Shown: positions 8,750 through 12,189 of the stretch, piece after piece | How the letters are laid out: each line of letters opens with the position of its first letter | How positions within the stretch are numbered: position 1 is the first letter of the stretch | IMG/VR virus record: IMGVR_UViG_3300037493_003062 | Span: 1-29,170 of that record | Direction: 5' to 3' (one strand) | DNA length: 29,170 nt | From: a virus | Notes under the pieces: generated by a model | What the model saw: only the letters and a program-made list of their open reading frames with translations | What the model was told of the DNA's origin: nothing | The model's database searches: none | Position numbers and translations under genes: made by a program

Positions 8750-9814
8750 ATGAGCACAGAACTTGAACTAGCCAACATTTCCGACACCGCCATTGAAGTC
8801 ATGCCACGGGCAAACGGCATTGCGAAATTTCAGCCGTTGCTTGCGTCGTTGCCTGAGGCTGAAGCCCGCATTGCGTCGCTCGCCATCACCGACACCGACA
8901 CTCCGCAGGAAATCGCCAAGAAGTCGGCGGCGGCAAAGCGCCTGCGGTTGGATGCCTTCCGGGCCGTCCGTATTGAAGCCAAAAAGATTCACGGTGAGTT
9001 GAAAGAGGGGGTCTTGAAAATCACCCGCGAGCTTGACGGTGCCGAGCGTGAGATCCGCCAGCGTTGCGAGGGTCACGAGGAAACCCTATCGCAAATCGAA
9101 CAGCACGCGGAGAAGATGGAGCAGCAACGCCGCGCCACACTTCGAGAAGCTCGTGCCGCCGAAATCTCCCCATTCCTCACCGGCCCGCTAACGGTTGACC
9201 TTGCGGACCTGACGGAAGAGCAGTTTGCCGCGCAACTCACCGATGCCCGCGACCTCCACGAAATGCGGGAGGCGAAGCGCCGGAAGGAGGAAGAGGACCG
9301 CAAGGCCGCGGAGGCGGCGGCAGAAGCCCAGCGGAAACGGATTGAGGCGGAGCAGGAGGCGGAGCGGAAGCGGCTGGAGGAGGAAAACCGTAGGCTTGAA
9401 GCCGAGCGGAAGGCGGAGCGTGAGGCGGCGGAAGCTGAGCGGAAGCGCATCGAAGCCGAGCGCGAGGAAGAGCGGAAGGCGGCGGCTGAGGAGCGCCGGA
9501 AGCTGGAGGAGGCACAGGCGGCGGAGCGGGCGCGACTGGCAGAAGAGGCGCGGAAGGCGGAGGCGGAGCGGAAGCGGCTTGCGGATGCGGCGGCGGAGGC
9601 AGCAGCAGCCAAAGCCAAAGAGGAGGCAGATGCGGCAGCGGCCAAACGTCGCGCAGCGGCAGCGCCCGACGCGGCGAAGATTGCCACGCTAGCGGAAGGA
9701 ATCACTGCCCTCATCCCGGAGTTTTCGAACCCGCTACTCGCCGGATCGGTTGCGCGTGCGGTCGGACTCGCCACCACAGAGCTTGCGCGGATTCGCGAAA
9801 AGCTGGAAGGTTGA
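8750..9814 (+). CDS. Long charged-helix protein, DUF1351-like, 354 aa
   Basis: Residues about 1-150 form the N-terminal domain, with repeated helical segments (KKSAAAKRLRLDAFRAVRIE, KITRELDGAEREIRQRCEGH). They resemble the DUF1351-type proteins often found beside RecT in phages; I am not certain of the family. Residues about 165-310 are almost only Glu, Lys, Arg and Ala in i/i+4 order, which predicts a stable single alpha helix or coiled coil. The end (LAEGITALIPEFSNPLLAGS) is a small globular cap. The function is unknown, perhaps a DNA-metabolism scaffold. The DNA of the helix is internally repetitive (GGCGGAGCGGAAG-type units). The stop lies inside the next promoter. Confidence 0.7.
   Translation: MSTELELANISDTAIEVMPRANGIAKFQPLLASLPEAEARIASLAITDTDTPQEIAKKSAAAKRLRLDAFRAVRIEAKKIHGELKEGVLKITRELDGAEREIRQRCEGHEETLSQIEQHAEKMEQQRRATLREARAAEISPFLTGPLTVDLADLTEEQFAAQLTDARDLHEMREAKRRKEEEDRKAAEAAAEAQRKRIEAEQEAERKRLEEENRRLEAERKAEREAAEAERKRIEAEREEERKAAAEERRKLEEAQAAERARLAEEARKAEAERKRLADAAAEAAAAKAKEEADAAAAKRRAAAAPDAAKIATLAEGITALIPEFSNPLLAGSVARAVGLATTELARIREKLEG
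9280..9615. repeat. Internally repetitive DNA coding for the charged helix
   Basis: Degenerate units built on GCGGAGCGGAAGCG and GAGGAGGC recur many times with strong purine bias on the + strand. They result from the Glu/Arg/Lys/Ala helix repeats. The complementary strand therefore shows a long false Ser/Ala-rich frame. Such repeats can slip and change copy number. Confidence 0.6.
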
Positions 9815-9838
9815 CAACCCCCGCGTCTGCGGTAAATT
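9811..9838 (+). promoter_or_regulatory. Strong promoter TTGACA-N16-TAAATT
   Basis: A perfect -35 TTGACA (9811-9816), a 16-base spacer and TAAATT (9833-9838) make the best sigma70-type promoter in the window. The stop codon of the preceding gene (9812-9814) lies within the -35. The transcript should start near 9845, at the beginning of the structured RNA that precedes the replication genes. Confidence 0.8.
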
Positions 9839-9844
9839 CCCCCA

Positions 9845-9963
9845 GCGCATCAGCGCCCGGAAGTGAAACTCCGGTTCCTCCATGATAGCACTTGCCACTC
9901 CCTCTCATCCGTCCGGTTTTTCATGGCCGAGTTTCACCGGATGGGTTGGGGGTGGCCTTTTTT
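9845..9963 (+). ncRNA. Structured leader or small RNA with alternative folds
   Basis: About 119 bases between a strong promoter and a terminator. In order: GCGC/GCGC hairpin (9845-9856), CCGGAAGTGAAACTCCGG hairpin (9857-9874), then the large terminator hairpin (9894-9956) with its U-run. The sequence GTGAAACTC (9863-9871) is exactly complementary to GAGTTTCAC (9929-9937), which lies in the loop and first bases of the 3' arm of the terminator. The two folds compete, as in an attenuator. Alternatively the product is a stand-alone small RNA of about 120 nt. I do not recognise the class. Confidence 0.6.
9894..9963 (+). terminator. Long two-part intrinsic terminator before the replication gene
   Basis: GCCACTCCC (9894-9902) pairs with GGGGGTGGC (9948-9956). 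After a small internal loop, ATCCGTCCGGT (9907-9917) pairs with ACCGGATGGGT (9936-9946). Together these make 20 pairs, three of them G-U, around an 18-base loop. CTTTTTT follows (9957-9963), only 10 bases before ATG 9974. Reading the replication genes requires read-through or antitermination. Confidence 0.75.
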
Positions 9964-9973
9964 ATGACCATCC

Positions 9974-10768
9974 ATGAGAATTCGCACGATCAAGCCGGAG
10001 TTTTTCACCCACGACGGCATCTTTGAGGCCGAGGAGGAAACGGGGCTTCCGCTCCGCCTTGCCTACATCGGATTGTGGTGCGCCGCCGACCGGGAAGGGC
10101 GGTTCCGGTGGGAGCCGCGCAGGCTGCGGGTGCAGATCCTCCCCTATGACGACGTGGATTTTTCACGCGTGCTTGACGCGTTGGTCACGCGTGGATTTCT
10201 CGTGAAGTACGCGTCGGAAGGGCGTGAGTTTGGGGCGATTCCATCGTTTCCGCGTCACCAGATCATCAACAACCGGGAAAGGGAGTCGGAATTGCCTGAG
10301 CCGTTGAGTATCAACATCATTGACGCGTGCCCCACGCGTGAACCACGCGAGCCCCACGCCGGGAAAGCGGAAGGGAAGGGAAGGGAAGGGAATATGGAAG
10401 GGAACAAGGAAGGGGAAGGGGAAGGGGAGGGGAACGCGTCGGCTACGCCTCCCGCGCCCGAACCGGAGAAACCAAAGCGGCAGAGGTTCACGAAGCCGAC
10501 CCTTGACGAGTGGACCGCCTACGCAAAGGAGATGGAAAACCCATTGACCGAGAATCAGGCACTGGGAGCGTGGGACCACTACGAAGCCAACGGTTGGAGG
10601 GTAGGAAAGGTCGGGATGAGCGACTGGCAAGCTACCCTCCGTGGGTGGTCCCGCAGGCAAAGGGAATTCCAGCAAACCAAAACGGCACCCCAATCAAACC
10701 GAACCGCAACACTCGCAGATGGCACTGTCGTCAAAAACGTCCGCAGTCAGTTTGCCAAATCCCGATAA
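9974..10768 (+). CDS. Phage replication initiator-like protein (O/DnaD type), 264 aa
   Basis: The N-terminus MRIRTIKPEFFTHDGIFEAE with GLWCAADREGRFRWEPRRLR is the winged-helix start typical of phage replication organisers that bind the origin and load the helicase. A low-complexity Gly/Glu/Lys linker (about residues 128-160) is followed by a C-terminal domain (FTKPTLDEWTAYAKEMENPL and GAWDHYEANGWRVGKVGMSD) seen in many phage replication proteins. It is followed by the DnaB-type helicase. Two arrays of 11-bp ACGCGT repeats and a purine tract lie within the gene, as the lambda origin lies within gene O. It begins just after an intrinsic terminator. Confidence 0.75.
   Translation: MRIRTIKPEFFTHDGIFEAEEETGLPLRLAYIGLWCAADREGRFRWEPRRLRVQILPYDDVDFSRVLDALVTRGFLVKYASEGREFGAIPSFPRHQIINNRERESELPEPLSINIIDACPTREPREPHAGKAEGKGREGNMEGNKEGEGEGEGNASATPPAPEPEKPKRQRFTKPTLDEWTAYAKEMENPLTENQALGAWDHYEANGWRVGKVGMSDWQATLRGWSRRQREFQQTKTAPQSNRTATLADGTVVKNVRSQFAKSR
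10163..10225. repeat. Iteron array 1, 11-bp period, ACGCGT core
   Basis: ACGCGT occurs exactly at 10165, 10176, 10187 and 10209, all multiples of 11 bp apart, and degenerate copies (TCTCGT at 10198, GGGCGT at 10220) fill the register. The consensus is NNACGCGTGNN. Since 11 is not a multiple of 3, each copy falls in a different reading frame, so protein repetition cannot explain it. It is probably a binding array for the initiator encoded by the same gene. Confidence 0.75.
10321..10364. repeat. Iteron array 2, 11-bp period
   Basis: ACGCGT at 10323 and 10334, ACGCGA at 10345 and ACGCCG at 10356 are spaced by exactly 11 bp. Units read TGACGCGTGCC, CCACGCGTGAA, CCACGCGAGCC and CCACGCCGGGA. A single further ACGCGT is at 10434. 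Arrays 1 and 2 flank about 100 bp of less GC-rich sequence, which may be the unwinding region. Confidence 0.7.
10369..10433. repeat. Purine-only tract of GGGAA and GGGGAA repeats
   Basis: About 65 bases contain only A and G except for TAT at 10393-10395 and one C. Units are GGGAA about five times and later GGGGAA three times. The tract codes for the Gly/Glu/Lys linker. Runs of three to four G at regular intervals could form triplex or quadruplex DNA beside the iterons. Slippage is likely. Confidence 0.6.
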
Positions 10769-10788
10769 TCACACACACCCCAGACAGC

Positions 10789-12189
10789 ATGAACCAAACC
10801 ACCGTCTACCGCCCCAGCGTTTACGATCCGGCGCGACCACTCCCCGGATCAGAGCAACTCGACAAACTGGTCCTGTCTTGCATGATGCAGCGCCCGGAAA
10901 ACATTCAGATCGTCCGCGACACCATCAAGGCATCCGACTTTTTCACTCCGCACTGCGCCATGATGTTCGACATCATTATCGACCGTCATGATGCCGGCAT
11001 GGCTGTGGATTGCACAGCGCTCGCATCCTACCTGCTCAACCGTGACCGCATCACCGAAATCGGCGGAATGCACCTGCTCGTCGAAATCGAAACCGCAGCA
11101 CCCTTGCCGTCACAGGCCGCAACCCGCACGCATTGCGCCGAACTCAAGCAGGCCGCAGGCAGCAGGCGCATGATTACTCTCGGGATGCAGGTTGCCGAGC
11201 TTGGATTCGCCAACGCAGACAACCGGGACACCGATCTGGCAGATGTCGTTTCCGAACTGGAGCGCATTCGGGAAAACGTCACCACCGATGTCTCCGTGCC
11301 AATCCGCCAAACGGTTCAAGAATGGATTGCTGATTACCTGTCGCCAACCCGCGACCCACGGGACCAGCCAGTCACCACTGGCATCAATGCTCTTGATCAA
11401 TTGTTTGACGGCGGCGTGAGGCGTGAGGCGTACCTGATCGGAGCAAAGACCGGGCACGGGAAGACCCTGATCAGTATGCAGATTGCTGGGAACCTAGCCA
11501 TCGCAGGCAGGCGCGGACTCATTGTGGGCTACGAAATGACCCGCAAGCAAATCCTCCAGCGGGACATCGCCCGCGAATCGGATGTTCACCTTGGCATTGT
11601 CATGCATCGACGCGAAGGCGACACTGGGGACTATGAGGAAATCATCGCAGCCGTGGACAGAATCGCCGAGTGGGATGTCCACACGATCGATAAGGCATCA
11701 ACATCGCTCCAAACCGTATGCGCCGAGGCGCGGCGACTGCACAGGCTGAAGCCACTCGACTTCATGGTCGTTGACTATCTCCAAATCATCCCACGCGAAC
11801 ACCGTCGCGATCAACGCACCGATCAACTTCTGGATTGGATGATGGTCGTTGTGAAGAGCCTGCAAAAGGAAATCGGCTGCACGCTTATCGTTCCCGTCCA
11901 ACTCAACGACGACGGACTTATCCGAGACTGCCGCACCATCGAAAACCACGTTGAAAACAACATGCGGATTGAGATGGATGTCGCTGAAGACGATGAAGGA
12001 AACGAAGTCATCCTCGACGCTGGAAGGATTCGCATCCTCAAGAACCGATACGGACCATCCAACCGGATCATCAACATCAGCAAGCACGGTGCCACCCAAC
12101 GGTTCACCGATGCAGCACCAAAGGAATCCCCGCCGCCATCGCCAAAGAAAAACACCTGGCGTGCAGGGAGGACGCGCAACGCGGATTGA
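10789..12189 (+). CDS. Replicative DNA helicase, DnaB type
   Basis: Hexameric helicase that unwinds the phage replication fork. The N-terminal domain (about residues 15-140) has the DnaB helical pattern SEQLDKLVLSCMMQRPENIQ and GGMHLLVEIETAAPLP. The RecA-like core carries Walker A GAKTGHGKT (residues 218-226), YEMTRKQILQRDIA, and Walker B FMVVDYLQII with Asp329. Further on are QLNDDG and the arginine-finger region IRILKNRYG. The length of 466 residues is typical. I start at ATG 10789; the in-frame upstream extension overlaps the initiator gene and lacks family similarity. It probably works with the protein at 9974. Confidence 0.88.
   Translation: MNQTTVYRPSVYDPARPLPGSEQLDKLVLSCMMQRPENIQIVRDTIKASDFFTPHCAMMFDIIIDRHDAGMAVDCTALASYLLNRDRITEIGGMHLLVEIETAAPLPSQAATRTHCAELKQAAGSRRMITLGMQVAELGFANADNRDTDLADVVSELERIRENVTTDVSVPIRQTVQEWIADYLSPTRDPRDQPVTTGINALDQLFDGGVRREAYLIGAKTGHGKTLISMQIAGNLAIAGRRGLIVGYEMTRKQILQRDIARESDVHLGIVMHRREGDTGDYEEIIAAVDRIAEWDVHTIDKASTSLQTVCAEARRLHRLKPLDFMVVDYLQIIPREHRRDQRTDQLLDWMMVVVKSLQKEIGCTLIVPVQLNDDGLIRDCRTIENHVENNMRIEMDVAEDDEGNEVILDAGRIRILKNRYGPSNRIINISKHGATQRFTDAAPKESPPPSPKKNTWRAGRTRNAD

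Follow-up and report, generated by a model that had tools for sequence, protein, structure and literature searches.

A short RNA resembling the c4 and CI immunity RNAs is a candidate attenuator of the replication operon in uncultured phages

How might an uncultured phage control the passage of transcription into its replication genes, and what kind of RNA would be suited to that task? The window, the whole 29,170-base stretch of a virus record analysed here, derives from an uncultured phage and encodes a DnaB-like helicase, a terminase, a Mu-type portal, and a RecT-like annealing protein. The initial annotation had noted, ahead of the replication genes, a promoter-driven RNA that is structured and ends in a terminator, a reading that the present analysis supports; the parts of this RNA and the genes behind it are given in Table 1. 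The gene for the replication initiation protein (rep) has no Shine-Dalgarno sequence in front of its start (ATG 9974), which overlaps the stop codon TGA of a leader ORF as ATGA. A sequence search of sequenced phages found only distant relatives of rep. The start of the helicase ORF, as listed, is probably too early.

Table 1. Parts of the RNA and the replication genes that follow it (positions of the window).
Feature	Position	Strand	Basis
Sigma-70-like promoter, TTGACA-16-TAAATT	9811..9838	+	10 of 12 consensus match
Hairpin 0, GCGC-AUCA-GCGC, abuts hairpin 1	9845..9856	+	folds
Hairpin 1, CCGGA-AGUGAAAC-UCCGG, 8-nt loop holding a	9857..9874	+	folds
a, GUGAAACU, in hairpin-1 loop, pairs with a'	9863..9870	+	exact complement of 9930-9937
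b, CCAUGA, over leader start codon, pairs with b'	9880..9885	+	pairing search
Leader ORF, 31 aa (MIALATPSHPSGFSWPSFTGWVGGGLFYDHP), runs through terminator	9882..9977	+	predicted
C4-like hairpin, long outer stem	9894..9956	+	folds; topology of the Rfam C4 consensus
b', UCAUGG, in and beside apical loop	9921..9926	+	pairing search
a', AGUUUCAC	9930..9937	+	complement of hairpin-1 loop
T-run, makes the C4-like hairpin an intrinsic terminator	9958..9963	+	TTTTTT
Replication initiation protein (rep), 264 aa	9974..10768	+	PHROG 16167, E 1.6e-41
DnaB-like helicase, after rep	10510..12189	+	PF03796, E 1.2e-27

The promoter had been called the best in the window; its elements are as described (TTGACA at 9811-9816, a 16-nt spacer, and TAAATT at 9833-9838), and within the 5-15 kb stretch scanned it ties for best. 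Of 200 dinucleotide shuffles of RNA 9845-9968, 2 fold as well as the RNA itself (z -3.2), whose minimum-energy fold (-48.5 kcal/mol) contains a terminator stem of 20 pairs (9+11) across 9894-9956. The hairpins, this stem, and the TTTTTT at 9958-9963, ending 10 nt ahead of ATG 9974, all lie where the initial annotation had put them. The 9-nt complementarity that it reported between GTGAAACTC (9863-9871) and GAGTTTCAC (9929-9937) is also exact, and each of the two sequences occurs once on the + strand of the window.

The idea that this pairing would drive an alternative fold and so disturb the terminator does not hold. The complement lies in a bulge: an apical hairpin (9914-9929) is followed by a', which is unpaired and leads straight into the 3' strand of the stem. 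A fold with the terminator intact and 9930-9937 unpaired has an energy of -47.5 kcal/mol, just 1 kcal/mol above the minimum; the nested alternative that uses the 9-nt pairing reaches only -32.9 kcal/mol, 15.6 kcal/mol weaker than the minimum and too weak to compete. Because a' sits in an unpaired bulge of the terminator, a/a' pairing and the terminator can coexist, as a pseudoknot.

The same anatomy recurs in related phages. The loci of rep-protein relatives were fetched from viral contigs and bacterial genomes, yielding 95 distinct stretches upstream of rep, about 18 of which carry hairpin 1, a linker, a terminator hairpin with the loop complement, a T-run, and the gene start. The hairpin-1 loop has 7 to 9 nt, mostly 8, on a stem that is preserved although its base pairs differ among the relatives. 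The loop complement stays single-stranded in nearly all members, where it separates the apical hairpin from the 3' strand of the terminator stem. Loop complements of at least 7 nt are present in 15 of the 95 upstream regions (0.95 in shuffles), and complements of 8 nt in 8 (0.1 in shuffles). A wider search added L345, L012, L078, L072, L074, and L049, and several of the members found in this way precede another gene that itself precedes rep. In total there are about 20 distinct relatives, which are uncultured phage contigs and carry the RNA mostly directly upstream of the same rep gene. L002 and L003 have the window RNA nearly unchanged, and more than half of the relatives have a tandem hairpin of the hairpin 0 type. 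Promoter-like elements similar to that of the window stand before the RNA in L009, L049, L073, L074, L077, and L161; no recognisable promoter was found ahead of several relatives, and the promoter is clear in part of the family only.

Variant arrangements were seen at some loci. In L125 (2880-2990), exceptionally, the loop complement precedes the apical hairpin on its 5' side rather than following it. L049 (2280-2470) has a promoter and hairpin 0 as in the window (83% identical), an RNA that differs from that of the window (loop AUUAGACC), and another gene next to it; the tail of its rep gene, elsewhere in the contig, is 100% identical to that of the window over 49 aa, a mosaic that suggests module exchange. 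A similar layout, with a strong promoter, a hairpin, and a terminator containing the loop complement, precedes a more distant rep gene in L161 (4830-5000) and L182 (4850-5000), contigs binned as Eubacteriales and Bacteroidota, an assignment that is uncertain. The structured leader before a related rep gene in L026 (2830-2990) is of another architecture, with several long complementary segments and a strong terminator. Within rep itself (window 10165-10440) lie 7 of the 10 ACGCGT sites of the whole + strand, partly at 11-bp steps (10165, 10176, and 10187; 10323 and 10334). All 11 viral relatives checked have such steps as well, at about +191, +202, and +213 and once more around +350 to +395, and so do, with a shift of 3, L130 and L137; a 75% DNA match in Vibrio phage VvAW1 covers part of this stretch. 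The repeats look like iterons of an origin within the initiator gene.

Aligning the hairpin pair with MAFFT gave a covariance model with zero consensus pairs, which was unusable. Loop and bulge sequences vary widely among members, yet a/a' pairing is preserved: 17 of 22 members have at least 7 of 8 nt complementary between own partners, a level reached in 24 of 462 cross comparisons, and runs of 7 occur in 15 of 20 members, against 1.2 under permutation (p < 5e-5 for own against permuted partners, and likewise when each close pair contributes a single member). The initial annotation had made its reading depend, beforehand, on compensatory changes in related phages, and these are present, with own partners matched. 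Between L116 (GGUGAAAU/AUUUCACC) and L121 (GGUAAGAU/AUCUUACC) there are two compensated changes in an otherwise similar RNA. In L061 (AUUCGCAC/GUGCGAAU) and L064 (AGUAGAGU/ACUCUACC) the loops are entirely different and each is internally matched; the identity of these two phages is 98% over the first 500 nt of rep and 93% over the 500 nt upstream, and only 65% from hairpin 1 to the gene. This pattern suggests selection for different specificities, or else module replacement, and loop diversification favours a trans-acting component.

The same pairing could serve a purely cis-acting attenuator, in which hairpin 1 docks in the terminator bulge as a pseudoknot and tunes terminator efficiency, with no trans RNA and no specificity function, the loop changes being compensatory drift. 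Pairing within one molecule can explain the covariation, a pseudoknot is compatible with the terminator, and a second target copy is absent; however, the loops are wholly different where neighbouring genes are 98% identical, a faster change than drift of a structural contact predicts, and the nearest relatives in anatomy act in trans (PMC4825925). A function in cis only is unlikely.

The leader ORF ties the RNA to the gene behind it, and a second pairing lies over or beside its start codon. Of 23 members, 18 have a start codon 3-32 nt past hairpin 1 (7.4 expected), and 13 have an ATG-started ORF that ends at most 12 nt from the start of the next gene (2.7 expected from 300 shuffles, with a maximum of 9). 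Segment b, at or near the leader start codon, pairs with b' near the apical loop; runs of at least 6 are found in 9 of 20 members, against 2.9 under permutation (p 2.5e-4, mildly optimistic for a directed search made after the likeness to C4 had been noticed; p 0.003 with one member per close pair), and in all nine of these b' lies 3-8 nt before a'. The elements follow one another in the order a, b, b', a', with a/a' in nearly all members and b/b' in about half. In L010, L116, and L121 the leader ORF has its stop codon within the hairpin, and L088, L072, and L074 are without a leader AUG and without clear b/b' pairing. Leader peptides diverge widely among members; selection on the peptide itself is unsupported, the sequences not being visibly conserved, and it may be the reading frame and position of the leader ORF that matter.

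No known class had been recognised at first; the anatomy nevertheless matches P1 c4 and P4 CI, with each element in the corresponding place, though Rfam cut-offs are unreached. P1 has, one after another, promoter, a1b1 hairpins, C4 RNA, a2b2, icd, and ant1. As in the c4 system of P1 and P7 (immI; RF01695 and RF03163), the regulator is sense-encoded within the operon that it regulates, and two hairpins come close behind the promoter; the second c4-a1b1 hairpin holds a1 in its 8-nt loop region, and b1 lies a few nucleotides later. A long outer stem comes next, within which b' belongs to an inner hairpin and a' is left unpaired just ahead of the 3' strand; b' lies about 6 nt before a' in P1, in line with the 3-8 nt of the nine members above. 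The leader gene icd ends on the next start (ant1) by ATGA, and the P1 pairing sequences set heteroimmunity. The Rfam C4 consensus has a long stem around hairpins, seven unpaired bases (which are a' in P1), and the 3' strand; in the RNA studied here, too, the outer stem surrounds one or more hairpins, and the 7-8 unpaired nt of a' immediately precede its 3' strand. Rfam c4-a1b1 has tandem hairpins close behind the promoter, the second with a 4-bp stem and an 8-nt loop; the hairpins studied here fit this architecture, though with model hits below the cut-off only, and hairpin 0 is putatively the first of such a pair. P1 differs in its separate C4 RNA, its two target pairs (a1b1 and a2b2), and its antirepressor target; new in the RNA described here are that the C4-like hairpin is itself the terminator, that one a/b target, at the start of the leader ORF, stands in for two, and that the target is a phage replication operon.

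P4 CI acts through seqA and seqC to end transcription prematurely, which prevents expression of the replication genes (PMC4825925), and translation over the site prevents termination (PMC10111431). Control of replication genes by termination, countered by translation, is thus a point of likeness with the mechanism proposed below, and the a/a' geometry is equal (P4 loop CGUGAGAA, partner UUCUCAC); P4 CI differs in being processed from a longer leader and in having targets on both sides, whereas no seqC-like copy was found here. IsrK, a structural homolog of seqA, has a short terminated form and a read-through form with a leader ORF coupled to the gene that follows (PMC4825925). Gifsy-1 IsrK/orf45-anrP (RF01394) resembles the present RNA in its tandem hairpins and terminator, which make up the short form, in its long read-through form, and in the translational coupling of the leader ORF to the following gene. 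It differs in that its terminator is short and without the complementary segment, which lies downstream, and in that short IsrK activates its own long form, whereas repression is proposed here.

The P4 immunity leader (CI RNA, seqA/seqC) is matched by the C4, isrK, and c4-a1b1 models, and the C4 and isrK models are reported to detect CI and seqA relatives (PMC10111431). At gathering thresholds the window has zero Rfam matches; the C4 model has no match at E <= 10 in 15 contigs, the c4-a1b1 model has none in the window, and the isrK model gives weak hits only, under its cut-off. The best c4-a1b1 hits fall on the RNA in L061 (E 9.4e-6), L345 (1.0e-4), L012 (1.6e-3), L062 (0.010), and L058 (0.015), all below the curated cut-off and with E-values reckoned per contig. 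A second target copy (a2b2/seqC) was not found downstream, where 18% of members have a 7-of-8 match to their own segment and 16% have one in cross comparisons. Because the Rfam cut-offs are unreached and a second target was not found, the RNA is not filed as a C4 member; by its anatomy it would be a c4/CI-type variant that works like these RNAs, and common descent with them is plausible. RNAs of the c4/CI type are listed for Proteobacteria and their phages (PMC2864571).

The RNA is probably a compact attenuator that works like P1 c4 and P4 CI RNA, and its loops would determine specificity. Computational support comes from the anatomy, the covarying a/a' segments, the weaker b/b' pairing, the excess of leader ORFs, and the localised divergence of the pairing sequences. 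In the scheme that we infer, which extends to transcription, termination, the direction of regulation, action in trans, and self/non-self specificity, the promoter would produce an RNA with two small hairpins followed by the C4-like hairpin that carries a' and b'. In the OFF state a' and b' would pair with a and b, either in cis or on another copy by way of the accumulated RNA of about 119 nt; with the leader start codon covered, ribosomes would not enter, the terminator would stand, and transcription would stop at about 9963, leaving the replication operon silent. In the ON state a ribosome translating the leader ORF would melt the hairpin, transcription would read through, and translation would be handed to rep at the ATGA overlap.

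Searches of 23 related contigs, many of them fragments, turned up no tyrosine integrase, and searches of 20 records, the window among them, no serine recombinase; lysogeny, where such RNAs act, is therefore not evident, though the records may be incomplete. A related explanation, which overlaps in mechanism with the c4/CI-type attenuator, is copy-number control of an extrachromosomal (phage-plasmid) replicon, the loops setting incompatibility groups as in plasmid RNAI/RNAII. The RNA does precede a replication initiator, the integrase searches were negative, and diversified kissing sequences resemble incompatibility determinants; however, the regulator is sense-encoded inside the regulated transcript, not antisense, and the window ORFs searched contained no recognisable partition gene, which makes this explanation improbable. 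That the product is instead a stable small RNA with other phage or host targets, placed before the replication genes only for a convenient terminator, would suit the promoter, the compact fold, and the terminator of a small RNA of about 119 nt, but is very improbable given that the loop covaries with its own partner in the RNA, that the full 8-nt pairing sequence is found nowhere else on the + strand of the window, and that the leader ORF couples the RNA to the next gene. An anti-CRISPR repeat mimic and a multimer like the phi29 pRNA were dropped as candidates, since C4 geometry accounts for the pairing in full.

As a c4/CI-type attenuator, the RNA extends this type of immunity RNA to uncultured phages in which no Rfam model exceeds its cut-off, and in a minimal form, with regulator, target, and terminator in one RNA of about 119 nt. 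Pairing sequences that differ sharply between near-identical phages are as expected of a self/non-self RNA. A less likely possibility is that phages lacking an integrase carry, ahead of the replication operon, a hypervariable pairing code made of RNA and needing no protein, and that this confers heteroimmunity outside classical lysogeny. If so, a resident phage would keep an incoming phage of its own type from replicating, and a sister phage differing solely in these few nucleotides would escape the shut-off; the natural near-identical pairs with swapped pairing sequences make this self/non-self idea directly testable.
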